Assembly (NCBI RefSeq): GCF_007483665.1
Contig: NZ_ML660192.1
Span: 8,660-72,659, forward strand
Source: Catellatospora sichuanensis
GTDB lineage: Bacteria; Actinomycetota; Actinomycetes; Mycobacteriales; Micromonosporaceae
Direction: 5' to 3'
Length of the DNA: 64,000 nucleotides
This document shows, piece by piece, positions 7,177-50,823 of this stretch (position 1 is its first letter; every line of letters begins with the position of its first letter). Under the pieces are notes generated by a model, which ran no database searches, had not been told where the DNA came from, and saw only the letters and a program-made list of their open reading frames with translations. A program made the position numbers and the translations under genes.

Positions 7177-7187
7177 GTCCAGTACTC

Positions 7188-24030: not shown

Positions 24031-24573
24031 ATGGGCGCAGTGGGCATATGGCGTGGTAGACCGCTGATCCATTACGGCTGGCGTTTCGACCGTTACGTGA
24101 CGAAACGGCTGGCTACGGCCGGCGCGTACGCGCAGGCGGCACTGGGCAGCGCCGCACGCGTCCGGGTTCTGGTCGGCGATCTGGCGGCCACTGCCATCGC
24201 GCCCGCCGTGGCCCGTGAAGATGATGACGTCACCCTCATCCTGGTCATCTTCGTAGCCGCCAGACATCACGATCGACTCGGCGCCGAGGTCAAGGGGTGG
24301 CCTTCGGGCACCTACGCCGACCAGCGACGGGCCGGGCAGGTGAAACGAACCCGGCCCACGACCCAGGCCGCCCACTGGTTCAGCCAGGCACTGTTCAAGG
24401 CCATGCTGCTGCGTGACTCGAATTCGCACTTCGAATCGCTGATGGTGCTGCCCGACTACGCCCGCTATCGCGACCTCGCTCTGCGGACCGCCAACAGTCG
24501 CGCAGCCGCAGTCATCCACATCGCCTTCATGAAGCCGGACGGCACCATCGACTCCTCGACGTGGGCACCATAG
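24031..24573 (+). CDS. Nuclease-like hypothetical protein (EVKG motif)
   Basis: About 180 residues from the ATG at 24031; GTG at about 24097 is an alternative. It contains GAEVKGWPSGTYAD, then KRTRPTTQAAHWFSQALFKAMLL, then LPDYARYRDLALRT. This is the pattern of a bacterial family with an E-x-K dyad of the PD-(D/E)XK type, usually preceded by a strand with a catalytic Asp. Here the preceding strand (DDDVTLILVIFVAARHHD) deviates, so activity is doubtful. It starts 27 bases from the divergent LuxR gene. The N-terminus may be truncated. Function uncertain. Confidence 0.55.
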   Translation: MGAVGIWRGRPLIHYGWRFDRYVTKRLATAGAYAQAALGSAARVRVLVGDLAATAIAPAVAREDDDVTLILVIFVAARHHDRLGAEVKGWPSGTYADQRRAGQVKRTRPTTQAAHWFSQALFKAMLLRDSNSHFESLMVLPDYARYRDLALRTANSRAAAVIHIAFMKPDGTIDSSTWAP

Positions 24574-25227: not shown

Positions 25228-28200
25228 ATGAACGAGACCGACCACGAGCAGGCCATCGACATCGTGGATCCGATGGTCGACCGCGCGGTCCGGCTGTTCA
25301 CCTTCCTCGGCGCGGCGGCCGGCCTGAAGAACACCCCGATCCGCTCGGTCGACTCGTACCAGTCATCGCTGTGGCTGGGCACCCTGCCCGTGCACCATGG
25401 CGTGCGGGTCGCGCACCGCAACGGCGACCCGATGCCCGAGGCGCCACTGCTCACCCTCGACCGGGTGCCCCGCCCAGCGCCGCCCTCGGTACCCGCGGAG
25501 CTGGCGCCGTGGCTCAACGGGCCTATCGACGACGCGCAGCGGCCACCGGCCCTGCGTGACACCGTGACCGTGCCCGCCGACAGCCCCACCGTGCCCGAAG
25601 ACTTCACCGCGCCCGGCGAACCAGACCCGGATGACGAGCCCGAAGCCGAGCCCGGAACGCTGCGCTCGGTGCACCTGCAGCTCAACGAGCTGCCCGACGT
25701 ACGCGCCGACCTGGACGCCTGGCTCACACGCTGGCAGGACTGGGCCGACACCGAGCGCCGCGACGAGCACGTGCGCGAGTTCTACCGGAAACTGTTCACG
25801 ATGCACGTGGCCGCCTCCGGCAACCCCGAAGAGCTCGAACTCGTGCTGGGGGTGGCCTGCCTGGGCTGGCTGCCCCCGAACGGCCACCCTGCCGTCAAAC
25901 GCCACCTGCTGACGGTGCCCGCGGTGATCAGGCTCAACGACGACACCGGCCGGCTGACCGTCGAACGGGCCGAAACCGGCGACACACTACGGGTCGAGGT
26001 CGACATGCTCGACCCGAGCCTGGTCAACGCCCGCAACCTCAACGAGGTCCGGGCCCGCGCCCAACAGGCCGAAGAGCATCCGCTGCACTGCGATGCGGTC
26101 GGCGCGCTGGCCCGCAGCCTGGTGCACACCATGGACCCCGACGCAGAGTACGACGACGGCGACGAGCAGCCCGCCGTCGGCGCGCGGGCCGCCGCGGCCT
26201 TCGCGCCCGCGCTCATCCTGCGCAAACGCTCCCAGCAGGGCATCGTCGACATCTTCCGCACCATCGTCGAGCAGCTGTCCGCGGCGGCAACCGTCCCCGA
26301 CGGGGTGCTGCCGCTAGTCGACCCCGACCACCGTCCGGCGGTGACCGCCGACCGCCAAGACGGCGCCGTCATCCAAATCGACGACGAGCATTTCCTTCCG
26401 CTGCCGGTAAACGACGTGCAGCGGCGCATCATCTCCCACGTCGACAGCCGGGCGCAGACCCTGGTCCAGGGCCCGCCCGGCACCGGCAAGACGCACACCG
26501 CCGCCGCACTGCTGGCCCACCTGCTGGCGCAGGGCAAGCGGGTCCTGGTCACCGCCCACACCGACCGGGCGCTGCGGGAGGTACGCAACAAGCTGCCCGC
26601 CGCGTTCAAGCCGCTATCGGTGTCAGTCGTGGGCACCTCCCGCGAGGACATGGCCGACCTGAAGGTCGCCGTGGAGCGGATCGCGGCCACCGCCGCCGAC
26701 CACGACCCGCAGCGCTCCGCCGGCGCCATCGCCGGTCACCTCGCCGACATCGACGAGCTGCGCCGCCGCCGAGCCGCCGTACACCGGCAGCTGATCGACG
26801 CCCGCGCCCACGACGTCGCCGAATACGACCTCGACGGCTACCGCGGCACACAGGCCGCCATCGCCCAGCAGCACTACGCCCAAGCCGCAGCCCATAACTG
26901 GCTCACCGAATACGCGCAGGTCGGCACGCAGACGCCGGTCCCGCTGACCGGCGACGAGATCACCGCCTGGCACGCGATGCTGCGCGACGCCGCACTCACC
27001 GCCGACGAACCCGCATCGCATCGCCGCCTGCCCGACCTCGCCACCATCCCCACCCCGGACGCGTTCGCGCAGCTGATCGCCGACGAAGCCGGCGCACGGG
27101 CCAGATACGGACACCACGACCGGCACCGCACCCACCCCGGGTACGCCGTCGTCGGCCGACTGCCCGACGGTTCACGCCGCGAATTCCAGCGGGTCCTGCG
27201 CGAACTCGCCGACCGGCTCGAGGAGCTGTCCCGCCGCACCGAGACCTGGATGCCGCAGGCGCTGGCCGACGTGCGCTCGGGCCGCGGCGCCATCTGGCAG
27301 GCCCGCGCCGACACCATCCAGCAGCTCGTCGACACCGCAGCCGCACCCCTGGCCGCGCTCGGCCACCTCACCCAGGTCACGGTCACCGCCGCGGACCCCG
27401 GGCCACTCGAACCGCTGGCCAGGGCACTGGCCGGCTATGTGTCCGGCGACCGGACGATCAAGACCAGCGCCGACGGCACCCCCAAACTCGGCATCCTCGC
27501 CCCGCAGCTCCTCAAGCAAGCACAGCCCCTGTTCGACCAGGTCCGCGTCAACGGCATCGCGCCGACCACCGCCACCCAGCTGCAGGCGTTCCTGCTCTGG
27601 GCACAAGCACACCGTGCAGTCACCGCCCTCGACCGGGCCTGGCCCAGCGACACCGTCATCCCCGACGAAGACACCCTCGCCGAACGCCTGCAGTGGCACC
27701 ACACCGAACTCGAACAGCTACGCAAGGCGCAAGCCCTCGGGGCCGCACTCGACGCCGAAGACCGCCGGTTCGCCCAGGCGCAACTGCCGCGGCCCGACTG
27801 GAACGACATCACCTCGCTGCGCGAATACGCCGCGCTCGCCGACGCGGCCACCGCCGCCGACGCACTGTCCGCGGCGTCCGCGCCGCTGTCACGGCTGGAC
27901 GTCGCGGTCTACGAGGTCGCGCAGTGGGAAGACGCCGCCGACATCGCACGCCTCACCCTGCAGGCCGTCCGCGACCGCGACGTCAACTCCTACGGTTCCG
28001 CCCACGCCCGGCTGACCCGGCTCACCGAGGTGCGCGAGTCCTGCGCACGACGTGACGCGCTGTCGGCCCGTCTGGAGCAGGCCGCCCCCGACCTGCACCG
28101 CGCCATCACCGCCGAGCCCGGCGAGCAGGCGTGGCCGCAGCGCCTCGCCACATTCGGGCAGGCGTGGGCGTGGGCGCGGGCCCAGGCGTGGCTGCGCGAA

Positions 28201-30663
28201 CACGACAACACCGACGTCAACGCCCTGCAAGCCGACATCCACCGGATCGAACAGCGCATCCACCACACGGTCGAGCAGCTCGCCGCGGAACGGGCATGGA
28301 GCCACGCGGTCTCCCCCGGTCGGCTCACCGGCCGCTCGCGGGCCAACCTGGAGCACTACGCCTACCTGGTGCGGCGGCTCGGCAAGGGCACCGGCAACTA
28401 CGCCCCGCAGCAGCGGGCCGAGATCCGCCAGGCGATGGACAAGTGCCGCCCCTCGGTGCCGGTCTGGATCATGCCGATCTACCGCATCGCCGAGCAGCTC
28501 GAGATCCACCCGGACATGTTCGACGTCGTCGTGGTCGACGAGGCCTCGCAGGCGAGCCTGGAAGCCACGTTCCTGCAGTACCTCGCCCCGAAGATCGTGG
28601 TGATCGGCGACGACAAGCAGATCTCCCCGTCCGCGGTCGGTGTCGACCAGGCGGCACTGCGGGCGCTGGCCGGCCAGTACATCCACGACGACCCGTACCG
28701 CTCGTCCTGGCAGGACCCGCAGCGCAGCCTGTTCGACGAGGCACGCATGCGGTTCAGCGGCCTGCTCACCCTGGTCGAGCACCGTCGCTGCGTACCGGAG
28801 ATCATCGGCTTCTCCAACCGCATCGCCTACGAACCCGACGGCATCCGCCTGCAGCCGGTACGCCAGTACGGCGCCGACCGCCTCGAGCCGATCAAACCGG
28901 TGCTGGTCCCCGACGGGTACGTACGCGGCACCACCAACAAAGTCAACCCCGCCGAAGCCGACGCGATCGTCGACCAGATCGAAAAATGCATCGCCGACCC
29001 GCGCTACGACGGGCTGACCTTCGGCGTCATCTCACTGCTGGGCAAAGCGCAGGCGGCCGCGATCGAGAAGCAACTGCTCGAGCGCATCCCGCCCGCCGAG
29101 TGGGCAGCACGCGACCTGCGCTGCGGCGACTCGGCCGACTTCCAGGGCTCCGAACGCGACGTGGTGTTCCTGTCGATGGTCGCCGCCATCGAACCAGGAC
29201 GGACGCTGATCTCGCTGACCCGCGACGACTACGTCAAGCGCTACAACGTCGCCGCGTCGCGGGCCAAGGACCAGATGTGGCTGTTCCACTCGGTCCGGCT
29301 GTCCGACGTCGGCAACCCGGAGGACATGCGCTTCCAGCTGCTCGACTACTGCTACGGCGTGGCCGGCCGAGCCTCGTCGGCGATGCCGGCGGCGATCTGC
29401 GGCGGCGCGCCGCACGACCGCCGGGTGGAGCCGTTCGACTCGCTGTTCGAGCAGCGCGTCTACAACCGGCTCGTCGACCGCGGGTACACGGTGCTACCGC
29501 AGTACCAGGTCGACTCGTACCGCATCGACCTGGTGGTCGTCGGCGGCAAGGCGCGCCTGGCGGTCGAGTGCGACGGCGACGCCTGGCACGGCCCGGACGC
29601 CTACGAACGCGACCTGGCCCGCCAGCGCAACCTGGAACGTTGCGGCTGGCGCTTCTTCCGCATCCGCGAATCCGCGTTCTACGTCGATGAGCCGGCTGCA
29701 CTGGCCGACCTCTGGGCGACCCTGCGTGAGCTGGACATCCACCCGTCCGGATGGACCTCCGCCGCCGAGGAGCCGATCGGTGACCAGACCGCAGCCGGAT
29801 TAGCCGATCCCTCCCCGACAGCCACCGGCACCCACGACGCCGAGGTCATCGAGGCGGAAAAGCCCGACGCGCTGCCCGCAGAGCCCGGTATCGGCGACGC
29901 CTCGCCGCCCGACACCGGCCGGCAGGAAACCTCCGCCCTTGACACCACCCCGGTCATGGCCGCCGTGCCCGGCACCTTCCTGCTCGGCACCGTCCCGGCA
30001 ACCACCCCGATGACCGACACCCAGGTACTCGACGCGGTGACCACCATCGAGATCGATCTCGGGCCCGAGGTGGAAGCGGTGCTACTGGAGACGACGCAGG
30101 CCGACCCAGAACCGGACCCGGCCATGGTCGCGCCCGTCGCAGAACAGCCCAGCACCCTGCCCGCCTACCACGAGTTCCTCGGCAGCGTCCGGTCACCGGT
30201 AGATGCATCCAAACAGGACTTGATCGACGGGATCGTCGCGATCGTCACGGCCGAAGGACCAGTGCTCGGCGACCGCATCCACACCGCCTACGTGCGCAGT
30301 TCCGGTGGCCAGCGGGTGGGCAAGTCCATCGCCAGCGCGCTGAACTCGGCAATCACGCTCGCGGTGCGCCGCGGCACGCTGGTGGAGGAGAACCCGCTGC
30401 GTGAGGCCGGGAACAAGCCACGCACGTACCGGCTGGCATCCCAGCCCAGCGTGCAGGTACGCCGGCTCGGCCCGCGCGCGCTGGACGACGTGCCTCCTGC
30501 CGAGGTCGCCGCGCTGCTGGAAACGGTCGCCGCGACTCACGGCTGGGACAATGCGGAAATCCTGTTCCGGGTGACGCTGGAGACGTTGGGGCTCAAACGG
30601 CTGACCAAGAATGTCGGCGACCGCCTGACCCGCTGCATGCTGCTCACCAGGCGGTCCTCTTAG
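25228..30663 (+). CDS. SF1 (Upf1/DUF4011-like) helicase with C-terminal Vsr/MTES_1575-type nuclease
   Basis: 1,811 residues from the ATG at 25228. N-terminal ~400 residues unassigned. Helicase motif I GPPGTGKT at 415-422, then a long helical insertion (about 500-1050). Motif II DEAS at 1104-1107, followed by IVVIGDDKQISPS, EHRRCVPEIIGFSNR and QGSERDVVFLS, the order of SF1B helicases. Nuclease domain about 1405-1500 with YRIDLVV (Asp 1434) and VECDGDAWHG (Glu 1447), the Vsr-like fold of MTES_1575. An acidic/Pro/Thr-rich linker (about 1510-1650) leads to a helical, probably winged-helix C-terminus. Such fusions are associated with anti-phage and DNA-modification islands. It is followed 165 bases later by a second helicase gene on the same strand. 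Confidence 0.9.
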   Translation: MNETDHEQAIDIVDPMVDRAVRLFTFLGAAAGLKNTPIRSVDSYQSSLWLGTLPVHHGVRVAHRNGDPMPEAPLLTLDRVPRPAPPSVPAELAPWLNGPIDDAQRPPALRDTVTVPADSPTVPEDFTAPGEPDPDDEPEAEPGTLRSVHLQLNELPDVRADLDAWLTRWQDWADTERRDEHVREFYRKLFTMHVAASGNPEELELVLGVACLGWLPPNGHPAVKRHLLTVPAVIRLNDDTGRLTVERAETGDTLRVEVDMLDPSLVNARNLNEVRARAQQAEEHPLHCDAVGALARSLVHTMDPDAEYDDGDEQPAVGARAAAAFAPALILRKRSQQGIVDIFRTIVEQLSAAATVPDGVLPLVDPDHRPAVTADRQDGAVIQIDDEHFLPLPVNDVQRRIISHVDSRAQTLVQGPPGTGKTHTAAALLAHLLAQGKRVLVTAHTDRALREVRNKLPAAFKPLSVSVVGTSREDMADLKVAVERIAATAADHDPQRSAGAIAGHLADIDELRRRRAAVHRQLIDARAHDVAEYDLDGYRGTQAAIAQQHYAQAAAHNWLTEYAQVGTQTPVPLTGDEITAWHAMLRDAALTADEPASHRRLPDLATIPTPDAFAQLIADEAGARARYGHHDRHRTHPGYAVVGRLPDGSRREFQRVLRELADRLEELSRRTETWMPQALADVRSGRGAIWQARADTIQQLVDTAAAPLAALGHLTQVTVTAADPGPLEPLARALAGYVSGDRTIKTSADGTPKLGILAPQLLKQAQPLFDQVRVNGIAPTTATQLQAFLLWAQAHRAVTALDRAWPSDTVIPDEDTLAERLQWHHTELEQLRKAQALGAALDAEDRRFAQAQLPRPDWNDITSLREYAALADAATAADALSAASAPLSRLDVAVYEVAQWEDAADIARLTLQAVRDRDVNSYGSAHARLTRLTEVRESCARRDALSARLEQAAPDLHRAITAEPGEQAWPQRLATFGQAWAWARAQAWLREHDNTDVNALQADIHRIEQRIHHTVEQLAAERAWSHAVSPGRLTGRSRANLEHYAYLVRRLGKGTGNYAPQQRAEIRQAMDKCRPSVPVWIMPIYRIAEQLEIHPDMFDVVVVDEASQASLEATFLQYLAPKIVVIGDDKQISPSAVGVDQAALRALAGQYIHDDPYRSSWQDPQRSLFDEARMRFSGLLTLVEHRRCVPEIIGFSNRIAYEPDGIRLQPVRQYGADRLEPIKPVLVPDGYVRGTTNKVNPAEADAIVDQIEKCIADPRYDGLTFGVISLLGKAQAAAIEKQLLERIPPAEWAARDLRCGDSADFQGSERDVVFLSMVAAIEPGRTLISLTRDDYVKRYNVAASRAKDQMWLFHSVRLSDVGNPEDMRFQLLDYCYGVAGRASSAMPAAICGGAPHDRRVEPFDSLFEQRVYNRLVDRGYTVLPQYQVDSYRIDLVVVGGKARLAVECDGDAWHGPDAYERDLARQRNLERCGWRFFRIRESAFYVDEPAALADLWATLRELDIHPSGWTSAAEEPIGDQTAAGLADPSPTATGTHDAEVIEAEKPDALPAEPGIGDASPPDTGRQETSALDTTPVMAAVPGTFLLGTVPATTPMTDTQVLDAVTTIEIDLGPEVEAVLLETTQADPEPDPAMVAPVAEQPSTLPAYHEFLGSVRSPVDASKQDLIDGIVAIVTAEGPVLGDRIHTAYVRSSGGQRVGKSIASALNSAITLAVRRGTLVEENPLREAGNKPRTYRLASQPSVQVRRLGPRALDDVPPAEVAALLETVAATHGWDNAEILFRVTLETLGLKRLTKNVGDRLTRCMLLTRRSS

Positions 30664-30828
30664 CCGCCCAGCGCTGCCATAGCCCGCGAGGATGACGCCG
30701 CCACTGTCCTGACCGCCAGTCCGTGTCGTCCTTACAGCCGGTGCCCAGGCCGCACGAGGGCGGCGACACTCCATGGCAGGAAAGCCGCAAAGCGTGGCAA
30801 GGGCCGATATCTCGACGGGACAAACACG
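30664..30828 (+). other. Short spacer between the two helicase genes
   Basis: 165 bases without a gene. Contains a GGGA ribosome site 8-9 bases before the next ATG. No clear terminator, so read-through is plausible. Confidence 0.4.
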
Positions 30829-33800
30829 ATGGATGACCTGCGCTACGAGCCGCCGCACCTGGCATACGGCTGGCTCGGGGCGCTCAAGCCCGCCACCTGC
30901 CTCGTCGTCGGCAACGTGCCCGACGACGACCGCGACGTGATCAGCGCAGCCGCAGCCGAGACACGTTCGGTGGAGACCAGCCCTTTCGTCTCGATGCTGC
31001 ACCGCGGCACGTACGCGTTCGCGCACGGGGGCATCTGGCATGTGCTGATCGCCGGCTCCGGCAGGCAGCCACGCGGCACCGACAGCGCACGTCGCAAGCA
31101 CACCGAGGACAGCCACCTGGTGGCCGCCTACCTACTGCATGAGCAGCTATGGGGCGAGGCGGGACCCTTCGCGGGCCGGGCCAGGTTCAAGCCACTGGAC
31201 ATGGTGCGCGCCAGAGGCGCCAGCCACGTCGGGCGGGTCAAGCGCGTCACAGCGGTGGGCGACGGCTACCGGTACCACGTCGACGTCCAAGGAGAGATCA
31301 AAACCTACAGCGAGCAGGCACTGCACCTTGAGGTCGGCGATCCCCGCGACCCCGAGTTCTGGCTGTCCCAGGACCCGGTCGGCGCCGCGGACCTTTCACT
31401 GACCCTGACATGGACGAAGCTGTCGCATCCGCTGACCGACACGCTCTACTCGTTCGCTTCCAGCAAGACGGTGTTCCGGTCGTACCAGTTCAAGCCGGTG
31501 CTCAAGATCCTCACTGGTTCGTCCGGACGGATCCTGATCGCCGACGAGGTCGGCCTGGGCAAGACCATCGAAGCGGGCCTGATCTGGAGCGAGCTGGAGC
31601 AGCGCGCCGCGCTGGAACGGGTCCTGGTCGTGGCGCCGGCGGTGCTGACCCTGAAATGGAAATCGGAGATGGAACGGCGGTTCGACCGCAGGCTGGACCT
31701 GCTGCGTCCGTCGCATCTCGCCGATCTCGCCCAGCGGCTGGAAGACGGCGACCCCGCGCAGATCCATGGCGTGATCTCGCTCGAGTCGCTGCGTGCTGCC
31801 GGGGGTGTGCTCGAAAACCTTACGAAGGTGAGCCCCCGGTTCGACCTGGTGATCGTCGACGAGGCCCACTACCTGCGCAACCGCACCAGCAGGTCCCACC
31901 AGCTCGGTCAGCTGCTCGCCGACTGGTCCGACTACCTGGTCTTCCTGTCGGCGACCCCCCTGAACCTCGGCAACGACGACCTGTTCAACCTGTTGAACCT
32001 GCTCGACGAGCGCAGCTTCAACGACAAGGAAGTCTTCACCGGCCAGCTGGAGCCCAACGAAGTCCTCAACGACGTGGCCCGCTCCCTGATGGACGTCGGA
32101 CGCACCGCGCCGCGCAAGCTGCTGGCCCGCCTCGACGACCTGAACGGCATGGAATTCGGGCCGACCGTGACGGACCGGCCCGACTACGGTCTGCTGCGCC
32201 GCATCTTCGACGTCGACCGGCCCCTCGACCACGACGAGCTCGCACGGGCACGCCGGCTGCTGGCCGACCTGAACGTCCTGGGCGGTGTGCTCACCCGCAC
32301 CCGCAAGGCCGACCTGCACGAGGCCAAGGCGATCCGTGAACCGCGCGCCATCGACGTGACCTGGACGGAAGCCGAGCAGGCCTACTACGACGCGGTCTAC
32401 AGCTGGTACATGGACAAGGCACTGGACCTGGGCACACCGCCCGGCTTCGCCATGCAGATGCCACTGCGCCAGGCGGCCAGCTGCATCCCGGCATCCCAGC
32501 AGCTGCTACGCGAACGCAGTCCCGAACTCTTCCTCCGCGAGGCCGACCTGGACGAAGTCGACCTCGACGACAGCGGCGCCCCGCTGGACCTGTCCGGCCT
32601 GGAAGGCAGACCTCCCCTGACCCGGCGCCTGGCGGTGGACACCAAGTACGACCGCCTACTGCAGGAGCTGCTGCGGATCCGCGACAGCGGCATGCGCCAG
32701 GTCATGATCTTCTCGTTCTTCCGGCGCACGCTGGCCTACCTCGCCAGACGACTGCGGGAGCACTTCGACGTCCGGGTGATGGACGGCAGCGTGAACATGG
32801 ACGACCGGCAGCAGATCATGCGGGACTTCCGCAACGGCGACTTCGAAATCCTGCTGCTGAGCGAGGTCGGCGCCGAAGGACTGGACTTCGAGTTCTGCAA
32901 CGTCCTGGTCAACTACGACCTGCCCTGGAACCCCATGCGCGTCGAGCAGCGTATCGGACGCCTCGACCGCTTCGGGCAACAGCACGAGAAGATCTTCATC
33001 TACAACATGCGCGTGCCGGGCACCATCGAGACCGACATCTTCCAGCGCCTCTACGACCGCATCGACCTTTTCCAGAGCTCCATCGGAGAGCTCGAGCCGA
33101 TTCTCCGCAACGAGCTGAGCGACATCACCAAACGCCTGCTCGACCCAACGCTCAGCGACACCGAACGCCACCAGGAGACCGAGCGGATAGCCATCGGCCT
33201 CAAACAACGCTCGCACGACATCGAACAGCTGCGCGCGTCGCAGGCGCAACTCGCCGGCATCGACAACATGCTCATCGACGGCTTCACCGACGCCGGCCCC
33301 AGCCACGGCCGCTTCATCGGAGCCACCGAAATCGAGCGGATGCTCGACAGCATGTTCAGCCGCCTCGGCGGGCGACGCCGCAAGCCGGACAAGCACGGCA
33401 TCTTCCACATCATCGGCTCCGACCTGCTCGCCGACCGACTACGACGCAGTGCGATTCCCGAGGGCGGCAGCCGGCTCACCCTCACCAAACTCGCCGCGCG
33501 GCTGCAGGACCAGGCCCCGCTGGAGTGCACGTTGCGACCGGACACCGCCAGCAGGTACGACGTCGAACTGCTATCCAGCCGCCACCCGCTGGTCAAACTC
33601 GCACTCGAAGACCTCACCGGCGACCCGCTCGACCTGAAACGCTTCGGCACGGTCTCGGTGCCAGGCCTACCGGCAGGCCGGCACTACCTGGTCACCGTCG
33701 ACCTCGCCGAGACGACCGGCCTACGGCCGATGCTTGAACTCTGGGCCACCGCAGTCGACCTGACGACTTTGGAGGAAGACCACGAAGTCGGCACCACCCT

Positions 33801-34188
33801 GCTGACCGCGCTCGCCGAAGGAACCCTGACCGACGGGCTGCCCGCCACCCCAGCCGGCGTCCAGCGCGCCTGGCAGGCTGCGCAGCGCTGCGCTTTCCTG
33901 CGGCAGCAGGCCGTCGAGCAGACCCGCGGGCAGGAGAACACGGCACTGGTGGACGGCCGGATCCGGGCCGGCGAAAGCTCGCTGGACCTGCAGATCCGCA
34001 AGACGGCCCTGCTCCTCCTACGCGCGACCGTTGAAAAGCAGGCTGACAGCATCATTCGCCTTCATGACGGCCGGCTGCGCAACCTGCAGACACAGCGCCA
34101 GGGGATCAAAGGAAAGCTGCTCGGCCGCAAGGAGCTGAGCATCTCGCTGACACCTGTCGCCGTGGTGCTCACCGGACCTGCTCAGTGA
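30829..34188 (+). CDS. SNF2/RapA-like superfamily 2 helicase-type ATPase
   Basis: 1,119 residues. N-terminal ~190 residues unassigned, with a beta-rich SH3/Tudor-like segment (GRVKRVTAVGDGYRYHV). Motif I DEVGLGKTIEAGLI at 239-252, motif II DEAH at 344-347, motif III FLSATPL. Helicase C-terminal half with MIFSFFRRTLAYL, LLLSEVGAEGLDF and QRIGRLDRFGQ (about 707-717). The extended C-terminal third is helical and resembles that of RapA and DISARM-associated DrmD proteins only in layout. These ATPases translocate on double-stranded DNA to remodel bound protein. The stop lies 10 bases from the stop of the opposing Hsp70 gene, so the two units converge. Confidence 0.9.
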   Translation: MDDLRYEPPHLAYGWLGALKPATCLVVGNVPDDDRDVISAAAAETRSVETSPFVSMLHRGTYAFAHGGIWHVLIAGSGRQPRGTDSARRKHTEDSHLVAAYLLHEQLWGEAGPFAGRARFKPLDMVRARGASHVGRVKRVTAVGDGYRYHVDVQGEIKTYSEQALHLEVGDPRDPEFWLSQDPVGAADLSLTLTWTKLSHPLTDTLYSFASSKTVFRSYQFKPVLKILTGSSGRILIADEVGLGKTIEAGLIWSELEQRAALERVLVVAPAVLTLKWKSEMERRFDRRLDLLRPSHLADLAQRLEDGDPAQIHGVISLESLRAAGGVLENLTKVSPRFDLVIVDEAHYLRNRTSRSHQLGQLLADWSDYLVFLSATPLNLGNDDLFNLLNLLDERSFNDKEVFTGQLEPNEVLNDVARSLMDVGRTAPRKLLARLDDLNGMEFGPTVTDRPDYGLLRRIFDVDRPLDHDELARARRLLADLNVLGGVLTRTRKADLHEAKAIREPRAIDVTWTEAEQAYYDAVYSWYMDKALDLGTPPGFAMQMPLRQAASCIPASQQLLRERSPELFLREADLDEVDLDDSGAPLDLSGLEGRPPLTRRLAVDTKYDRLLQELLRIRDSGMRQVMIFSFFRRTLAYLARRLREHFDVRVMDGSVNMDDRQQIMRDFRNGDFEILLLSEVGAEGLDFEFCNVLVNYDLPWNPMRVEQRIGRLDRFGQQHEKIFIYNMRVPGTIETDIFQRLYDRIDLFQSSIGELEPILRNELSDITKRLLDPTLSDTERHQETERIAIGLKQRSHDIEQLRASQAQLAGIDNMLIDGFTDAGPSHGRFIGATEIERMLDSMFSRLGGRRRKPDKHGIFHIIGSDLLADRLRRSAIPEGGSRLTLTKLAARLQDQAPLECTLRPDTASRYDVELLSSRHPLVKLALEDLTGDPLDLKRFGTVSVPGLPAGRHYLVTVDLAETTGLRPMLELWATAVDLTTLEEDHEVGTTLLTALAEGTLTDGLPATPAGVQRAWQAAQRCAFLRQQAVEQTRGQENTALVDGRIRAGESSLDLQIRKTALLLLRATVEKQADSIIRLHDGRLRNLQTQRQGIKGKLLGRKELSISLTPVAVVLTGPAQ

Positions 34189-34198
34189 GCACGCTGCC

Positions 34199-35860
34199 CT
34201 ACTGCACCTGGAACGCCGGCGGCGCGTACTCCTTGTTGTGATACCACGGCACGAGCGCGACGGGCGCCTGGCTGTCGAGACTGGACAGCACCAGCCGGGC
34301 GTGGTCCCGGCCGCGGATCACCGGCCAGCTGTCGACCCTCAGGTGGTAGGCCTGTCCTGTCCCGTCCTGGACCAGGACCTGGCCGTTGCAGTAAAGCTTG
34401 ACCATCATGTCCCTGCCCATGCGCAGGCTCAGTCCGTCCATCTGCTGCCCGTTGAACATCAGCTCCAGACGCTCGCCTGACATGGACTGCACCCGGAGCA
34501 CCCCCACGCCCCGCCAGGGCAGGTCGGCCTCGCGCGCACGCCACTCGAAGCCGAGATGCGAACGACCGCTGAGCACCTCCCACGGCTCGTAGAACGGCGT
34601 ATACGCGGGGTAGACGGTGTGCTGCTGGACGAGGCCGTGCTCCTGCCACTCCAAGACGAAGTCAAAGCCTGGGCGGTGCAGGTTGAGCCGCTCGTAGCCG
34701 CCGGTGTCGGCGAGCCCGGCGACGATCGCCTCATCGGGGGCCACGCCGGCGTTGTCGAAGACCTGGGCATGCGGGAACAGCGCCCCGATGCGCCGCTCGA
34801 CGTACGGAATACGGCTCATCCCCCCGGCGAGCAGCACGTAGTTGATGTCCTTGACGAGCTCGGCAGCGCCGCGGCGGCGCAGTTCGTCCGGCGACCCGCT
34901 GCCGCGTACGGTCAGCAGCGCCGCCCGCAGCGCCGCCCACACCAGCTGCTCAGCCACGTCCATCTGCGGCCGGAACGCCTCCTCCAGCTGCTCGCGGGAG
35001 TAGACCAGCACGGGCAGCTCCCCGAGTGTGCGGGGCAGCACGACCGAATGCGAAGGCGCCTGCGACAGCCTCACCTTCGCCTCCCGAGCAGCCCGCAGCA
35101 GGTGCGCCGCCACCAGCTCCGGCGGCACCGGCAGGGCCGCCACGTCGACCCCCCGTTCGGCCAGGCCGGCAGCGAGGTCCGCCGCAATGGCCTGGTCCAG
35201 GCTGTCCCCGGCCATAGCGGTGCCCAGCGAGGCCAGCACCGAGATCTCCGGCCGCGAGCCGCCCTCGATGTCGAGCACCGCGATATCGAGCGTGCCGCCG
35301 CCCATGTCGAAGACCAGCAGGCGGCCCGTCGGGTGCTCTCCGTAGGCGAGGTAGCGATGGGTCACCCACGCGACTCCCGCCGCGATCGGTTCGTCGACCA
35401 GCGTCGAGCCGTCGACGGGCAGGTCCGCCTTGGCGGCCAGGTCGAGCAGCCGCCGCCGCTGGGGTCCGGTCCACATCGCCGGGCACCCCAGCCGTACGTC
35501 GCCACCGGAAGGCAACGGCTGTCCGGCGGCCGCGGCCCGACTGCCGATCTCGGACAGCACAGCGATGATCACATCATCGGCGCTGACCTCGCGGGTTCCG
35601 GACGCCGACGAGACCGCAAGGACGTCGAGATCGTCGGTGATGGCTCGCTTGACGGAGCGGACGACCTGGCCGATGGGCAGCCCGTCTGCGTCCTCCCCGA
35701 CCAGCAACGCCTCGCCCCGGTAGCCGGCCAGCGAAGGGAACGAGCGAGTGGAGCGACCCAGCGAGGCGATCTCCACCGGCAGGCCGCCGAACTTCTCCGC
35801 CACCAGCGAGGTCGATGTTCCGAAGTCGATGCCGATCGCGTGCCCGCCGGTGCCCGTCAT
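34199..35860 (-). CDS. Hsp70/DnaK-family ATPase
   Basis: 553 residues from the ATG at 35860. Actin-fold ATPase: phosphate-1 loop IGIDFGTSTSLV (9-20), phosphate-2 loop VFDMGGGTLDIAV, adenosine motif LLAGGMSRIPYVE. Beta-rich C-terminal ~150 residues lack a clear DnaK substrate-binding domain and lid, so it is a specialised Hsp70 and not the housekeeping chaperone. It starts in the stop of the preceding gene (TGATG), which ends in a GrpE-like domain. The pair therefore mirrors DnaK with its nucleotide exchange factor. Convergent with the two helicase genes; I infer joint function. Confidence 0.9.
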   Translation of the reverse strand: MTGTGGHAIGIDFGTSTSLVAEKFGGLPVEIASLGRSTRSFPSLAGYRGEALLVGEDADGLPIGQVVRSVKRAITDDLDVLAVSSASGTREVSADDVIIAVLSEIGSRAAAAGQPLPSGGDVRLGCPAMWTGPQRRRLLDLAAKADLPVDGSTLVDEPIAAGVAWVTHRYLAYGEHPTGRLLVFDMGGGTLDIAVLDIEGGSRPEISVLASLGTAMAGDSLDQAIAADLAAGLAERGVDVAALPVPPELVAAHLLRAAREAKVRLSQAPSHSVVLPRTLGELPVLVYSREQLEEAFRPQMDVAEQLVWAALRAALLTVRGSGSPDELRRRGAAELVKDINYVLLAGGMSRIPYVERRIGALFPHAQVFDNAGVAPDEAIVAGLADTGGYERLNLHRPGFDFVLEWQEHGLVQQHTVYPAYTPFYEPWEVLSGRSHLGFEWRAREADLPWRGVGVLRVQSMSGERLELMFNGQQMDGLSLRMGRDMMVKLYCNGQVLVQDGTGQAYHLRVDSWPVIRGRDHARLVLSSLDSQAPVALVPWYHNKEYAPPAFQVQ

Positions 35861-37983
35861 CAAACTCCCCCAGTCGCCACCACCAGTGCCTTGGCCACCA
35901 GAATGGACTCGCCGGAAGTCCGCCACCAATAGCCTGGACGGACAACATCCACTGGCGAACCAGCCTCCGGAGGGTCGAGAAGCGCCTCATGCGTCTGCCG
36001 GTCGAAAGCCGCTCTTTCGCCGACGGCACCCACCGCTTCGAGGTCTTGCGCAGCGACCAGACCGCGCACCCGCTCGACGAGTACGCGAGCGTCCGAGCCG
36101 TTGACCGCCAGCTCCTCCACCTCGGCGGCCAGCGCGGCCAGCGCACGCACCACGTCGATTCTGACCTGCCGCTCCTGCGACGCCCGCAGCTTCACCGCGT
36201 GCGCGTGCTGCGCGCGCACCGTCTCCTCCAACCGGCCGTAGCGCTCGGCGAGCTCGCGCTCCTTGGCCTCTGCGGCCATGGCCGTGTCGAGTGCCGCTGC
36301 GGCCTCGGCGCGCGCCCTGGCGAGCTCACCTTCGAGAGCTGTGATCCGGGTCTGGCCGGACAACGCCTGAACCCATCCGCGTGCGACAGGTTCATCTGCC
36401 GCCACCCGGCGAAGCGCCTCGGCAACACTGTCCGCCGGAAGTTGAGCCGCGAACTCACGTGGCAGCCCGAGCAGGAACGCCAGCCCGGTGCGGGTGGCCA
36501 CCGTGGACAGCTCCCGGCCCACCAGCGGCGCCAAGACCTGCTCGGCGACGGCCGCCTGCGAGGTGACGGCCCCCAGCGGACCCGCAGCGCACGCAACGAG
36601 GTCCCGCAGTGACGCCCCGGCCCACCACATCCGGGCGGTGACCTGCTCCGGTGCGAGCCGACCCGCCGCTGCGACCACGGCGGCCCGCGGTCCCTTCACC
36701 GTCCATGGCAGGCAGGCCACCACCGCGGCGACGCCCTGCAGGTCGACCGATGCCCGGCCCTCCGGCGGAACCTGTGGCAGCAGGCGCGCCAGCGCACCTG
36801 CCGCCGCTTCCAACGCCGCCGCATCCGGCTGCCGGCCGTCCGCGACGAAGCCGGCCACTTGGACGAGCGAACCGAGTCCCGGCACAGCCACCCGCGCCGA
36901 CACCCGGCGTATCAGCCAGGCCGCCGCCGTGCGGCACGCCGGGTCCGGTTCCCGCTGCGCCGAGATCTCAGCCGACGCGCCCGCGAGAAGCGACTCGACG
37001 ACGGCCTCGTCGGCCGGCGGCAGGTCAGCGCCGTCGATCATGTCGTCGTGCTTGGGTAGCGCCAGCAGCAGCACCGATATCGGCCGGTGATGCGGGGACG
37101 CCAGCAGCGAGGCGATCACCGCCTTGGACAGCCCGCTCATCCGCGCGCCAGTCCTCAGCGGGTGCCGGACCAGGTCACTGACGTCGGCGTTCTCGACTCC
37201 GATCGCCTCGGCGAGCACTTCGGCCAAGGAGCCCGACAACGCCCTCGGCGCGACCTCGGCAGCGGGCGCCACGACGGCTGGCGGTGCGACCGTCGCCGCC
37301 TCGGCGTCCGGAGTCGCCACCTCCGCGGCGGGCGCTGGTGCGGCCTCATCGGTGTCCGGAGGCGCCAGCTCTGCGGCTGACGCCGGTGCGGCCTCCTCGG
37401 CGTCCGGAGGCGCCACCTCTGCAGCCGGCGCCGCCCCCTCGATGTCGGAAGGCGCCACCCCTGCGGCAGTCGCCGGTGCCGAGTGACCTCCAGGGTGATC
37501 ACCCTTCGCGGTCGCCGCGGGTCGCGCCATGTCGACCCACTTGTACGTGCGGCCGCTGCCCTTACCCGAAGCCGCCACATTCGGGATGGCAGCGAAGCCG
37601 CGTTGTGCCGCACTCCACGCGTCCGCCACGGCCTGCGCCGGGAGCCCGTATGCCTCCAGCTGGCTACGTGCCCCGCCGGCCGTCAGTGGGCTGAGGCTCT
37701 CCCGCAGCAGCCGCAGCACGATTGCCTTCGGGTCCGCCGCGAACTGCGCGGCCAGTGCCGCAGGATCGACAAGGTACAGATGCCGCAGGGAGTCACGGGC
37801 GACAACCACCACGCGGTTACCCGCGGTGATGACCTCCTCCTCGCCGTCGCCCCAGCGCACCAGGTACCTGTTCAGCTTCCCTTCGGCGCGGGAAAGCACC
37901 GTGCCCACCCGCACCGGCTCGGAACCGTTCACCGGCCGATGTATCACTACCTGCGTTCGCTCCACGGCTGAGACTGTAGACAT
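35860..37983 (-). CDS. Large coiled-coil protein ending in a GrpE-like head
   Basis: 707 residues if the ATG at 37983 is used; ATGs at 38010 and 38022 are possible. N-terminal beta-rich module (about 1-80; RVGTVLSRAEGKLNRYLVRWGDGEEEV) resembles a KOW/Tudor-type SH3 fold. A helical segment about 90-150 follows, then a Pro/Ala/Glu repeat linker (about 160-270) and a helical middle (280-520). Coiled coil about 530-620. The C-terminal ~70 residues (DLEAVGAVGERAAFDRQTHE, then VDVVRPGYWW and ILVAKALVV) match the GrpE beta-domain pattern IEAVGExFDPxxHEAV, then VVEVLRPGY, then RPAxVxVA. Together with its coupling to the Hsp70 gene, this supports a dedicated nucleotide exchange factor with extra targeting domains. 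I base this on pattern recognition only. Confidence 0.7.
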   Translation of the reverse strand: MSTVSAVERTQVVIHRPVNGSEPVRVGTVLSRAEGKLNRYLVRWGDGEEEVITAGNRVVVVARDSLRHLYLVDPAALAAQFAADPKAIVLRLLRESLSPLTAGGARSQLEAYGLPAQAVADAWSAAQRGFAAIPNVAASGKGSGRTYKWVDMARPAATAKGDHPGGHSAPATAAGVAPSDIEGAAPAAEVAPPDAEEAAPASAAELAPPDTDEAAPAPAAEVATPDAEAATVAPPAVVAPAAEVAPRALSGSLAEVLAEAIGVENADVSDLVRHPLRTGARMSGLSKAVIASLLASPHHRPISVLLLALPKHDDMIDGADLPPADEAVVESLLAGASAEISAQREPDPACRTAAAWLIRRVSARVAVPGLGSLVQVAGFVADGRQPDAAALEAAAGALARLLPQVPPEGRASVDLQGVAAVVACLPWTVKGPRAAVVAAAGRLAPEQVTARMWWAGASLRDLVACAAGPLGAVTSQAAVAEQVLAPLVGRELSTVATRTGLAFLLGLPREFAAQLPADSVAEALRRVAADEPVARGWVQALSGQTRITALEGELARARAEAAAALDTAMAAEAKERELAERYGRLEETVRAQHAHAVKLRASQERQVRIDVVRALAALAAEVEELAVNGSDARVLVERVRGLVAAQDLEAVGAVGERAAFDRQTHEALLDPPEAGSPVDVVRPGYWWRTSGESILVAKALVVATGGV
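37245..37470. repeat. Imperfect tandem repeats coding for a Pro/Ala/Glu linker
   Basis: About three to four imperfect 48-base units encode blocks such as AAEVAPPDAEEAAPAS and AAELAPPDTDEAAPAP in the GrpE-like protein. A flexible acidic spacer between the N-terminal module and the helical middle is likely. Copy number may vary between strains. Confidence 0.7.
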
Positions 37984-38394: not shown

Positions 38395-38640
38395 CGGTCA
38401 CACAGCCCGAGCCGCCGATGCGGCGCAGCGTCGCGTCCAGACACACGACCAGTGTCGACAGGCTCTGGCCCCAGACCAGCAGCACGGCCCGGAACCGCGA
38501 CCAGGACAACCACACGCAGAACAGGCTCGTCCACCGGCCGGCGATGACCGCCACGGAACCCCAGTCGAACGGGATCCACATCCCCGGCTCGGGCACCACG
38601 GCCGATAAGCCCGCCGATGACCGGCCTTCGCCACGGCGAC
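38395..38640 (-). pseudogene. IS21-family transposase (IstA) internal remnant
   Basis: The minus strand reads VPEPGMWIPFDWGSVA, then RWTSLFCVWLSWSRFRAVLL, then LVVCLDATLRRIGG. This is the integrase-core opening of actinomycete IstA proteins (EPGxWxQFDWG, then LFCAWLAWSRFR, then LDATLRRxGG), including the first catalytic Asp. Homology then stops before the TDN segment. No IstB gene is present. Confidence 0.75.
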
Positions 38641-44285: not shown

Positions 44286-45044
44286 TTATCGGCCGTCCGC
44301 CGGCGGATCGGCGGTCAGCCAGATCTCGAGGTCTGCCGCGGTGCGCAGCTCCGCGTCGACTCGTTCGCGCTCCGACTCGGTGAGTTGGACGGTCCGCAGC
44401 TCCGCGGCGTACGTCTCGATCTTTGCGGGTTCGCCCATGGCAACCGCCAGCTCGATCAGCGCCGCCAACGCCAGCGCCCGGTCGATCGGCGCTGCCTGGT
44501 CGCGGTGTTTGCGCAGCCCGGAGGTGAGCGCGCGGTAGGCTGCGCGGTCGTCGGTCTTGAACTCGCGGTAAATCCGGGCGTTGTCGAGCACCCGTGCCAG
44601 CCCTTCGAGCTTCTTCGAGCCGCCGTACTCCACCTCCTCCGGTTCGTCGCGCTGGATGAAGACGATCGAGTTGCCGGACGGGTCCATCAGGGTGAAGCGG
44701 CTGGCGCCGGGTCGGTAGCGGGTGAGCCGGGGCAGCCCGGTGGCCAGCACTTTGCCGTAAGCCTGGCGCATCGCCTGGGTGAAGGCGGCGTGGTACGGCG
44801 CGACCGCGTCGACCAGCACCAGGCAGCCGCCGCTGTTCTCCTCGCTGGGGTCCAGCCCCTGCGGCGGATTCTTGAAGTGCAGGTCGAAGCCGCCCAACTT
44901 GAAGGCAAGATAGAGGTACGGCTTGGTCTGCCGCCAGGTGACCTGGAAGCCGAGCGCCTGGTAGAACGCCAGCGTGTCGTCGGCGGACACGCACGGCAGT
45001 AGCGGCACGGTCGTCTCGGTCGGCTGGCTCGTCGCCTCGTTCAT
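44286..45044 (-). CDS. VOC/glyoxalase-fold protein with helical C-terminus
   Basis: 252 residues from the ATG at 45044, which has GGGGAAGG eight bases upstream. N-terminal VOC half: VPLLPCVSADDTLAFYQALGF, LGGFDLHFKN, FTLMDPSGNSIVFIQ. This is the paired beta-alpha-beta fold of glyoxalase and bleomycin-resistance proteins. The C-terminal ~100 residues are helical and unrecognised (KLEGLARVLDNARIYREFK). A resistance or small-molecule-binding role is possible, but metal ligands cannot be assigned with confidence. Confidence 0.82.
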   Translation of the reverse strand: MNEATSQPTETTVPLLPCVSADDTLAFYQALGFQVTWRQTKPYLYLAFKLGGFDLHFKNPPQGLDPSEENSGGCLVLVDAVAPYHAAFTQAMRQAYGKVLATGLPRLTRYRPGASRFTLMDPSGNSIVFIQRDEPEEVEYGGSKKLEGLARVLDNARIYREFKTDDRAAYRALTSGLRKHRDQAAPIDRALALAALIELAVAMGEPAKIETYAAELRTVQLTESERERVDAELRTAADLEIWLTADPPADGR

Positions 45045-45149
45045 GTTCTGTGCCTTCCCCCTCGCAGCTGTCGCTACCGCATTGTGGCCGGTCACAGCGT
45101 TTTCCGCACATGGCCGAGTTTGCGTCGATGGATTGCCCTCACAACACGG

Positions 45150-45660
45150 TCGGGCAGCCAGAGGACCACGCGTTCGGCCGATCACGCGGCGGGTTGAACG
45201 ACGAAGCTGCACCTGGCCTGCGACCAGGGCCGCAAACCCCTGTCGATGCCACTGACCGCCGGCCATCGGAGCGTTAGCCGTCAGTTCGCAGGTGTCCTGC
45301 CAGCATCCGCGTGCCCCCGCACCCTCCAAGTGCCGCCCTCGGACCCGGCCGGACCTCGTCCTGGCCGACCCGGACTACACCTGCAGCGCCGACCGGGAAC
45401 TGCTGCGCCGCCGCGCAATCAAGGCGTGCATTCCGAAGATCGACCACGACGCCCACCGCAAAGCCAAACCTCCCGAGGCGAACGCCCCCCCGCCTTCGAC
45501 CCAGCCGTGTATCGGCAGTGGCACGCCGTCGAATGTGGCATCAACCAGCTCAAACGCAACCGAGTCACGGCCGCTCGCAACGACAAGTTCACCGTCTGCC
45601 TCCTCGCCACGATCCACGTCACCGTGATCAACGAGTGGCTACACGCACTTCGACCCCTGC
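45150..45660 (+). pseudogene. IS5-family transposase remnant, several frameshifts
   Basis: Read across three frames the plus strand gives RSRGGLTTKLHLACDQGRKP, then LVLADPDYTCSADRELLRRR and AIKACIPKID, then RPPAFDPAVYRQWHAVECGI and NQLKRNRVTAARNDK. This is the order of the IS5 DDE core: first region, second Asp, and the Glu region (VExxINxLK). It has at least two frameshifts and no N-terminus. It lies directly against the 3' end of the cas3-like gene. Confidence 0.8.
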
Positions 45661-45668
45661 CAGGACCT

Positions 45669-47834: not shown

Positions 47835-48733
47835 CCTACCGGTTCAGAATCAGCAGCCGCCTGGGGTGAAGGCCTTGCCCGCGAACCGGTCGATGAGGAA
47901 GTCCTTGACTCGGCCCGAGGTCGAGCACGCTGGGCGCGACACCGATACGGCGGGGCAGGCGCATGACGCGGCTGCCGAGTTGCTGCGGCGGCCTGCTTCG
48001 GCGGCCCGGCTTCCGGCCGGGCTGACGGCGATCAACGCTGCACGGAGGTCTCCGATCCGGCGGGCGTATCGCAGCGAGATCGCGGCGGTCAAAACAGATC
48101 CGCAGACCGCTCCGACCGTGCGGAGGTTCCTCGCCCCGCGGCTGACCGGCCACAACGTCGCCAGCACGGCCCGCGAACGCAACGAGATCGGCGTTCCGTG
48201 CCCGTCCAGCGCCGACCCGGACCGCAACACGCACCGCAGTGGCGAGGCGTGGATCCTGCGCATCGTCACGGCGATCTGGCCAACCCTCTTCGCCGGCGCC
48301 TCGTAGATCGACGGCTTCCCTGCCACGAACCAGGTGACGGACTTCGCGGTCCAACTGAGCCGACCCGCCGCTCGTCAACAGCCCCGCCCCCGACTGTCGC
48401 TTGCCCACGGTCAGCGGGGCTCGACCTGCCCGCCGATCCGCCCGCGTGGCCGCGCCGGAGCGCCGCGTATCAACGTCGCCAAGGCATTCACCCATGTGAA
48501 CGCTCACACCTTCGTTTCAGCGACCTGCAGCCTGCCACTCTGGTGACGCACGATGCCCACAGCACAGGCACCTGCGTCGCCCAGCGCATCGAAACCTGCT
48601 GTTGACATCCCCGTAACCACTGGAGAGGCTGTTAGCGATCACAAAGCGACCCGATCGCGCGCTAGAACCCCGCCGAGAACCGCCCTCGCCCGCGAGCGCA
48701 ACCCCTCCCACCTCTCCCCGAAGGAGCCCGCCG
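47835..48733. other. Intergenic region with recombinase debris
   Basis: Between cas3 and the GH43 gene. Besides the serine recombinase remnant, open frames on both strands show no domain. A semi-palindrome TGTTAGCGATCACA near 48628-48641 could be a regulator site for the GH43 gene. GAAGGAG before 48734 is the GH43 ribosome site. Confidence 0.4.
48087..48390 (+). pseudogene. Large serine recombinase internal remnant
   Basis: The plus strand reads TDPQTAPTVRRFLAPRLTGH, NVASTARERNEIGVPCPSSA and DPDRNTHRSGEAWILRIVTAI. After a frameshift it continues with ANPLRRR. This is the recombinase-domain segment of actinomycete serine integrases (ETAPxVRWIF, then SVASIARxLNERGVPCPSxADPxRNxHRSG, then LRTVAxILANPRYTG). 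The catalytic N-terminus and zinc-ribbon C-terminus are gone. Points to a past integrative element at this site. Confidence 0.75.
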
Positions 48734-50179: not shown

Positions 50180-50337
50180 AGCAGCACCGATGTCGCCAAT
50201 CTGAAGGTCTGCCTCGCCGCGGCCCGGGCCGGTCCCCCGCTTTCGTGAGATCGGTCCGGGGCCGCTGCCTGCTCGACGCGACAAGGTGGCGGCCAGGCTC
50301 GGTCTCGCGGACCATGAATCTGGTTCGTTAGACGTGT
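50180..50337. other. Short intergenic region
   Basis: No gene or clear terminator seen. CTGGTTCGTTAG just before the transposase relic may be part of its left end. Confidence 0.3.
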
Positions 50338-50815
50338 ATGGCCCGTGGAGACCTGAGCAACACCGAGTGGGCTGTGCTGGAGCCGTTGCTTCCGGCGCAG
50401 CCCGCTCGTGGCGGTCAGTGGCGTGACCACCGGCAGGTCGTCAGGTCGCGGTCCCGCGTCCCGGTGGCATCGGCCGACCACGCAAGCGACCGGACTCGTT
50501 GACCGGCGACAAGGCGAGCTCATCGCGGGCCAACCGGGCGCTGCTGCGTTCACGGGACATCACTACGGTCTTCCCGGAGCCAGCGGCCAGATCGCCAACC
50601 GGAGGCGGCGCGGCCGCTCCGGTGGTAGACCACCGAACTTCGACCGCGCCGTATACCGCAGACGCAACCAGGTAGAACGCGGGTTCGACCGGCGCAAGCA
50701 CTGGCGCGGACCGGCGACCCGCTTCGACGAGCTGGCCAGCCACTACCAAGCCACCCTCGACCTCGTCGAAGCCCTCGACCGGCTACGCGCCGTACCCGAC
50801 GGACATGATCTGTGA
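50338..50815 (+). pseudogene. IS5-family transposase with large internal deletion
   Basis: The start at 50338 reads MARGDLSNTEWAVLEPLLPA and RGGQWRDHRQV, the typical IS5 N-terminus. It then jumps, in other frames, to GRPRKRPDSLTGDKA, then RGRSGGRPPNFDRAVYRRRN, QVERGFDRRKHWRGPATRFD and a stop at 50815. About 100-150 residues of the DDE core are missing. The termini are present, so this may be a recently deleted copy. A different lineage from the relic at 45150. Confidence 0.82.
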
Positions 50816-50823
50816 GCCAGAAC

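Follow-up and report, generated by a model that had tools for sequence, protein, structure and literature searches.

RapA-like SNF2 helicases recur in several bacterial defence systems, as DrmD in DISARM, BrxHII in type 3 BREX and ArmA in ARMADA. DISARM sets DrmD beside DrmA, DrmB, DrmC and a methylase, and the BREX core comprises PglZ, BrxC/PglY and a methylase. BrxHII is described in the main text of PMC12839542 as combining a Tudor domain, an SNF2 domain, an inactive restriction endonuclease (REase)-like domain and a C-terminal domain; a search of that text for the terms Hsp70, GrpE and chaperone gave no match. The main text of PMC12458937, in which the terms chaperone, HSP and DnaK were not found, describes ARMADA as a YprA helicase, a BrxHII-like helicase and a PglX-like methylase. 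Here we analyse a 64,000-nucleotide window of Catellatospora sichuanensis DNA (GCF_007483665.1, contig NZ_ML660192.1, positions 8,660–72,659 of the forward strand; the assembly is 9.45 Mb in 65 contigs) that encodes an SNF2 ATPase of the same superfamily. Unlike in these systems, its constant partners are an Hsp70 and a GrpE-like protein, and the core of this three-gene unit, which we call the triad, lacks a methylase, YprA/DrmA, DrmB, DrmC and PglZ. All positions are those of the window unless a locus is named.

Chaperone-type ATPases occur in other conflict systems. GAP1-N2 GTPase-centric conflict systems of actinobacteria and firmicutes contain, like the triad, HSP70 with a GrpE exchange factor, and in a subset the HSP70 lacks the peptide-binding part (Kaur et al. 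2020, PMC7159879). They differ in their GTPases, GAP1 and FNIII repeats and in their place near the membrane, and the part of that source available to us describes no SNF2 and no fusion of GrpE with winged-helix and helical parts. No GTPase was found among the 24 open reading frames (ORFs) of the window scanned with Pfam (four ORFs of the island and 20 others); GAP1 was not searched for. CnuD of type III CoCoNuT, an Hsp70-like protein with nucleotide-binding and substrate-binding domains (SBDs), has likewise been recruited to a restriction system, but it is tied to McrB/McrC-like proteins and predicted to be a poor ATPase (PMC11090510), whereas the triad Hsp70 retains all six ATPase residues examined here and comes with an exchange factor-like protein of its own. 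MORC/paraMORC ATPases of the GHKL (Hsp90) superfamily are coupled to superfamily 2 helicases, including SWI2/SNF2 proteins, in restriction-modification (R-M) operons (Iyer 2008, PMC2292703); as described there, they differ from the triad in the Hsp90-like fold of the partner and in having no exchange factor. A term search for Hsp70, DnaK, chaperone and SNF2 gave no match in the main text of PMC10482375. We found no description of an Hsp70–GrpE–SNF2 triad in the literature searched, which is weak evidence as the search mostly covered papers outside subscription. The triad may be a new variant of RapA/DrmD-centred systems, and the chaperone theme may be general.

The SNF2 gene (P0002; 30829–34188, plus strand, 1119 amino acids) runs tail to tail into the genes for the Hsp70 (P0003; 34199–35860, minus strand, 553 amino acids) and the GrpE-like adaptor (P0004; 35860–37983, minus strand, 707 amino acids), with 10 bases (34189–34198) between the P0002 and P0003 stops. 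A further plus-strand gene, P0001, encodes a superfamily 1 (SF1) helicase–Vsr protein. All four ORFs are uninterrupted and the catalytic motifs that we looked for are intact. A sequence-only reading of this DNA had proposed two helicase genes facing an Hsp70/GrpE-like pair across a 10-base gap, and the ORFs and domains bear it out. It had also proposed translational coupling within the pair. In the window the P0004 stop does share one base with the P0003 start codon (TGATG), but overlap was absent from all 18 other loci with both genes called, in which gaps of 8 to 489 bases rest on called starts, several of them called late. The three genes recur at 24–69% protein identity in other genera, and the triad is therefore no chance pattern of ORFs. 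No promoter was found in a promoter scan, predicted terminators did not rise above shuffled sequence, and a scan of the window for tRNA genes found none.

P0002 has the Pfam domains SNF2-rel_dom and Helicase_C, with intact DEVGLGKT, DEAH and QRIGRLDRFGQ motifs; Pfam recognised no nuclease domain in it, and none was recognised in the triad core. Its best PADLOC model was DrmD (2.6e-127), followed by a BrxHI/BrxHII model, and with 302 bits against a cut-off of 610 it missed the threshold of the NCBIfam DrmD equivalog. By profile, its closest solved relative is RapA (E = 9.4e-49). RapA-type SNF2 proteins act on protein–DNA complexes. PADLOC also matched P0001 (PDC-S37), and the scan of P0003 and P0004 gave no match.

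P0003 matches Pfam HSP70 (7e-23) and has a full ATPase domain. Residues D12, K71, E157, D185, T190 and D192, which by analogy with DnaK we take to be the catalytic Lys/Glu/Asp and phosphate-loop Thr, are invariant in 34 of 34 aligned orthologues. In an AlphaFold2 (AF2) model built from these 34 orthologues, with a predicted local distance difference test score (pLDDT) of 87, a short beta-rich C terminus resembles a substrate domain and the helical lid is absent from the prediction. The top Protein Data Bank (PDB) match of the model was DnaK lacking SBD-alpha; the first 38 of 50 listed matches were chains of 493–649 residues, mostly DnaK, BiP and Hsp110, and isolated ATPase domains came only after them. 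P0003 scored 87 bits against the NCBIfam DnaK equivalog, below its cut-off of 823.

GrpE opens the nucleotide cleft of Hsp70, and Hsp70s let go of clients via exchange factors. P0004 is predicted to be GrpE-like from profile matches, from a long-helix and beta-wing topology and from Foldseek, and the identity proposed earlier held up. As a single sequence it has no Pfam match, and the Pfam GrpE model finds one of 17 family members, at E = 0.2 and short of its cut-off; family profiles placed the PDB GrpE structure 3a6m on top (E = 1.8e-6 and 1.9e-5). The AF2 model, from 19 orthologues and beginning at 37932, orders an SH3/Tudor-like strand region, a winged-helix-like domain, a disordered linker, a helical region, an 84-residue helix (residues 527–610) and a GrpE-type beta-wing (strands within 631–686). 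Its pLDDT is 80.5 and its predicted template modelling score 0.46, a low value for which we trust the individual domains and not their arrangement.

We scanned one genome per species for Hsp70 and kept 80 of 112 confirmed matches as loci: 35 actinobacterial orthologues (L011–L045, 39–68% identity) and 45 generic Hsp70s (<35%). By tblastn, P0004 matched all 35 orthologue loci and P0002 matched 20; neither matched any generic locus. SNF2 is convergent with Hsp70 in the window, as it is in each of the 20 related loci that have SNF2, with called 3′ ends from −92 (overlap) to +19; L035 is counted on the SNF2 3′ end alone, where its contig stops. SNF2-linked loci carry a long P0004. Nineteen long forms, including that of the window, were aligned, three of them taken by tblastn range where the gene caller had cut them short; in L026 and L028 P0004 was uncalled and its C terminus still visible by tblastn. 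In the 15 loci that lack SNF2 the partner is short, about 210–260 amino acids (winged-helix-like plus GrpE-like), save L042, with a fragment at the contig end, and L025, with a tblastn match only. The expected co-occurrence of four genes fails and that of three is upheld: the unit is SNF2, Hsp70 and GrpE-like, with P0001 as a passenger.

A tree of the Hsp70s (34 rows, omitting L039, which lacks SNF2, and L045, which has it) spans seven named families, and flanking genes differ between loci. The SNF2-linked rows fall on either side of the midpoint root. Of the 14 unlinked rows, 13 group in a single Micromonosporaceae clade (support 99/96), which may be related to GAP1-N2 systems; the other, L013, is nested among linked rows and is an isolated loss of SNF2. 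Pairwise distances of Hsp70 co-varied with those of SNF2 (r = 0.93, n = 19) and of P0004 (r = 0.91, n = 18; 0 of 5,000 permutations each), which shared vertical descent alone can explain. The spread is patchy: counting the genome studied here, 1 of 200 genomes of the order and, at orthologue level, 2 of 396 of the phylum, in a first-pass scan that scores few candidates per genome and may miss some. We also noted a second SNF2 paralogue of 1060 amino acids near the triad SNF2 (L031:2513–5695, minus strand), a triad Hsp70 of Antribacter soli that is split over two frames, through either gene decay or a sequencing error (L045:10001–11696, plus strand), and two short-GrpE/Hsp70 pairs in tandem, with a shortened first Hsp70, in a metagenome-assembled genome of Micromonosporaceae (L024:3697–8113, plus strand).

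The unlinked Hsp70 loci serve as a natural control for the genomic setting. We took up to three neighbours per side, of at least 150 amino acids, and applied a PADLOC threshold of 1e-20. Neighbours in SNF2-linked loci (92 of 93 proteins scanned, 19 loci; L035 had none) matched 161 PADLOC families and those in unlinked loci (75 of 75 scanned) matched 2, mad8 by two members and mad3 by one; this is a contrast and not a rate, because the families are redundant and the counts are of families, not genes. All ten neighbours chosen for length or recurrence, from six linked loci, matched PADLOC models. The ten are PglW (L018), HsdM and HsdR (L015), PDC-S68 (L011), a protein with a short PglZ match (L027), GmrSD, PDC-S36, a UvrD-like helicase and a YprA-like helicase (L021), and a kinase fused to a DruE/YprA-like helicase (L016). 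YprA/DruE-like proteins accompany the triads of L016 and L021 and, by cluster membership, of L017 and L020. The fusion, with a PD-T4-6-like kinase and 2073 amino acids, is divergent from the triad SNF2 (L016:8366–14587, scanned; L017:10402–16623, assigned by cluster membership; plus strand). Ten adjacent proteins of unlinked loci were mostly metabolic (glycosidase-like, transketolase, sulfatase, aldehyde ferredoxin oxidoreductase), with a histidine kinase and others; the ten also include the products of two possible conflict genes, an NB-ARC/TPR protein in L036 and a HerA-like ATPase in L037. The association of a helicase with the Hsp70/GrpE-like pair (20 of 35 loci) and its defence company, as the sequence-only reading had suspected, are supported. 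Association of the pair with unrelated housekeeping genes, which would have spoken against it, was seen at the 15 loci without SNF2, mostly of the short-GrpE clade, and not at SNF2-linked loci; we rejected a purely housekeeping Hsp70/GrpE pair, which fits those 15 loci only.

Relatives of P0002 also have chaperone-type partners on mobile elements. A tblastn search at 1e-40 gave nine plasmid records, and in all nine neighbourhoods a chaperone-type ATPase adjoins the SNF2 relative. Five partners are actin/Hsp70-like (L098, L100, L103, L104 and L192; L192 and L103 share a protein accession) and four are sacsin-like GHKL proteins (L099 by Pfam; L101, L102 and L105 by alignment with the L099 protein). 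On the archaeal plasmid L099 (4747–15377, plus strand), a UvrD–PD-(D/E)XK fusion, the SNF2 relative and the sacsin-like protein stand in one gene run. We then searched IMG/VR contigs, whose sequences were not used in building the partner models, with the SNF2 alignment and kept 80 of 357 loci. The five best (438–491 bits), 30–53% identical to one another, all have an adjacent partner, sacsin-like in L108, L109, L111 and L112 and actin-like in L110; at L109 it is convergent with SNF2 and overlaps its tail, an arrangement seen in many triads. None of the other 75 (≤263 bits) has one; in L134 an Hsp70-like ORF lies within the locus without adjoining SNF2. We chose the 400-bit cut once the gap had been seen, and sought partners in the actin/Hsp70-like and sacsin-like families only. 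Scanning the viral contigs with the Hsp70 alignment gave four relatives (24–26% identity). MORC/paraMORC proteins are a precedent for the eight sacsin-like partners. We tentatively suggest a broad class of immune systems that has gone unrecognised, in which a RapA/DrmD-type translocase would be paired with a chaperone-fold ATPase as an arming switch and the cutting enzymes would be interchangeable. The partner would be a true Hsp70 with a DNA-tethered GrpE in Actinobacteria, an actin/Hsp70-like protein on alphaproteobacterial and cyanobacterial plasmids and, for rhizobial and archaeal plasmids and for viral contigs, mostly a sacsin/Hsp90-like protein.

The gene content, conserved order, intact catalytic residues, co-inheritance, defence setting and recurrence of chaperone-type ATPases beside SNF2 relatives are best explained overall by a chaperone-gated DNA translocase defence module that borrows the effectors of its neighbours, to which we give a probability of roughly 0.55. 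The three-gene unit is real and conserved, and it is probably defensive. Its genomic context makes an anti-phage function quite likely, and physical coupling of the chaperone to SNF2 is also likely, though somewhat less so; that the chaperone gates SNF2, instead of remodelling a client, is a tentative proposal. P0002 would be the double-strand DNA translocase of an anti-mobile-element module, controlled by a dedicated chaperone couple. P0004 would act in nucleotide exchange while tethered to DNA, with Tudor-like and winged-helix-like parts on DNA or nucleoprotein and a GrpE module that holds and resets P0003. There the lidless P0003 could cycle on a client, which might be the SNF2 motor, kept idle or loaded, or else a nucleoprotein machine of the invader. 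Exchange of ADP for ATP would free the motor to translocate and to strip or expose the invading DNA, which an adjoining effector would cut: P0001 here, and GmrSD, YprA-like helicases, PglW or type I R-M at other loci.

If so, folding chaperones have repeatedly been harnessed as on/off switches for DNA motors in bacterial immunity, and an Hsp70 exchange factor has been rebuilt as a DNA-binding scaffold, linking proteostasis to the control of DNA translocases. Unannotated ATPases adjoining RapA-like helicases on plasmids would gain a function, and the triad would offer a defined three-gene unit. It would stand beside DnaJ, which reportedly has a role in phage sensing by the NLR-related bNACHT25 (PMC12169576).

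Several observations weigh against the gated-translocase module, besides the limits of the PADLOC contrast and of the distance co-variation given above. The triad genes are convergent and not a single operon, and no J-domain protein was found among the ORFs scanned with Pfam. The 15 of 35 loci without SNF2 mean that the Hsp70 is not obligately tied to it; SNF2 and Hsp70 orthologues occur together in two genomes of the even phylum sample of 396, one of them the genome studied here. One genome without an Hsp70 orthologue (G455) has a full-length SNF2 relative (41% identity) followed by a UvrD-like helicase, and another (G311) has an SNF2 relative without Hsp70, at a contig end. Foldseek gave P0004 four GrpE structures with probabilities of 0.94–1.00 and weak E values (0.05–0.23), and nothing at E ≤ 0.001; its best matches were armadillo-repeat proteins (E = 0.027), which presumably fall on the helical region. 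AF2 topology, together with weak Pfam matches, suggests the Tudor-like and winged-helix-like parts. For the actin-like partners P0006 and P0007, Pfam gave no match and single-sequence PDB searches nothing relevant, so that their fold rests on a profile–profile match to the Hsp70 family (E = 1.5e-9), on motifs and on one single-protein match (L104, 3e-5). The viral actin-like match at L110 is weak (30 bits).

Other explanations were weighed. Host DnaK, DnaJ and GrpE act on the replication complexes of phage lambda, and with this precedent Hsp70 and P0004 might themselves be the effector, in place of a nuclease, and dismantle phage replication or packaging complexes, with SNF2 doing no more than supplying DNA access. 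The joining of a DNA-binding-like part to a GrpE part in P0004, and a triad core without a recognised nuclease domain, fit such an invader-directed chaperone; the conserved partner, however, is a translocase, and several flanking genes encode nucleases or R-M components, and we consider this explanation unlikely. Slightly less likely again is a housekeeping or stress role, in which a RapA-like remodeller with Hsp70 and GrpE removes stalled RNA polymerase or aggregates of nucleoid proteins, the defence setting being incidental. The resemblance of P0002 to RapA and the mostly metabolic company of Hsp70 orthologues without SNF2 agree with it. The patchy distribution (subject to the misses of the first-pass scan), the sharp difference in defence neighbours that sets SNF2-linked Hsp70s apart from unlinked ones, and the related SNF2–chaperone pairs on plasmids and IMG/VR contigs argue the other way.

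The PADLOC ranking of P0002 and the YprA/DruE-like neighbours could also suggest a variant of ARMADA, DISARM or BREX, with SNF2 as the shared ArmA/DrmD/BrxHII part and the chaperones as accessories. We regard this as improbable, given the bit score below the DrmD cut-off, the lack of a PglX-like methylase, YprA helicase and PglZ among the 24 window ORFs scanned with Pfam, and constant partners that are chaperones and not YprA or PglX genes. Membership of the window locus in any of the three was rejected: the DrmA, DrmB, DrmC and methylase partners of DISARM, and the PglZ, BrxC/PglY and methylase of BREX, are absent from the window ORFs scanned, and of ARMADA only the helicase resemblance is present there.

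P0001 (25228–30663, plus strand, 1811 amino acids) lies co-directionally 165 bases upstream of P0002. It has an ATG start, a Walker A motif, AAA_11/AAA_12 domains, a Vsr-family REase_MTES_1575 domain with an intact ID...VExDG motif and a weak match to DUF3320, a winged helix-turn-helix-like part; HEPN or transglutaminase domains were not matched by Pfam. It shares its helicase, Vsr-type REase and DUF3320-like parts with the giant MTES_1575 SF1 helicase–Vsr REase–winged helix-turn-helix proteins (Anantharaman 2013, PMC3710099). It scored 203 bits against PADLOC PDC-S37, a model without a stated cut-off, and 111 bits against Hhe (cut-off 2000); at 197 bits against the NCBIfam antiphage model ProA (cut-off 1500) it is a remote member of the ProA/PDC-S37 kind. 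By tblastn, one of the 35 Hsp70-orthologue loci gave a weak match to P0001, a distant PDC-S37 relative in L033. Because the loci extend no more than about 6–7 kb past the SNF2 start and several contigs end sooner, the absence of P0001 holds within that reach. Relatives of the C-terminal 787 residues of P0001 occur in 11 of 118 genomes of the class, including its own. All ten others lack the triad Hsp70 (the best Hsp70s are generic, best E = 2.3e-21) and a P0002 relative at 1e-40. The closest orthologue (G628), full-frame and 71% identical over the matched part, has no triad genes in 19.9 kb, and relatives on the four plasmids examined (of 40 records found) lack them too, save weak SNF2-like matches on two. 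The earlier claim that the chaperone pair serves two helicases finds no support in this distribution. P0001 is thus a neighbour and a possible, locally supplied effector. That it is the obligate nuclease of a four-gene SNF2/Hsp70 machine is very improbable, for all its co-directional position, its intact nuclease and Walker motifs and the PDC-S37 relative in the L033 island, since it is unmatched at 34 of 35 loci within reach and its relatives occur without the triad, and we rejected it as a core gene.

The insertion sequence (IS) relic suspected to the right of the island is a 218-base IS21 istA fragment (38412–38629, plus strand; best match 74% over 218 bases). Farther right, a 721-amino-acid protein has a Cas3-like helicase and, after it, an HD domain (45669–47834, minus strand); no direct repeats were found near it, in 44500–51500. 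On the left, a LuxR-family ATPase ORF carries in its N-terminal extension a SAD_SRA match (1.7e-9, residues 103–144; about 24160–24290, minus strand), perhaps left over from an SRA-type modification-dependent restriction gene at the island's edge. A NACHT ATPase (851 amino acids) adjoining a VWA-domain protein (520 amino acids) at 4621–8750 on the minus strand, in a stretch of low GC content (58–62%), looks like a separately acquired NLR-like conflict pair.

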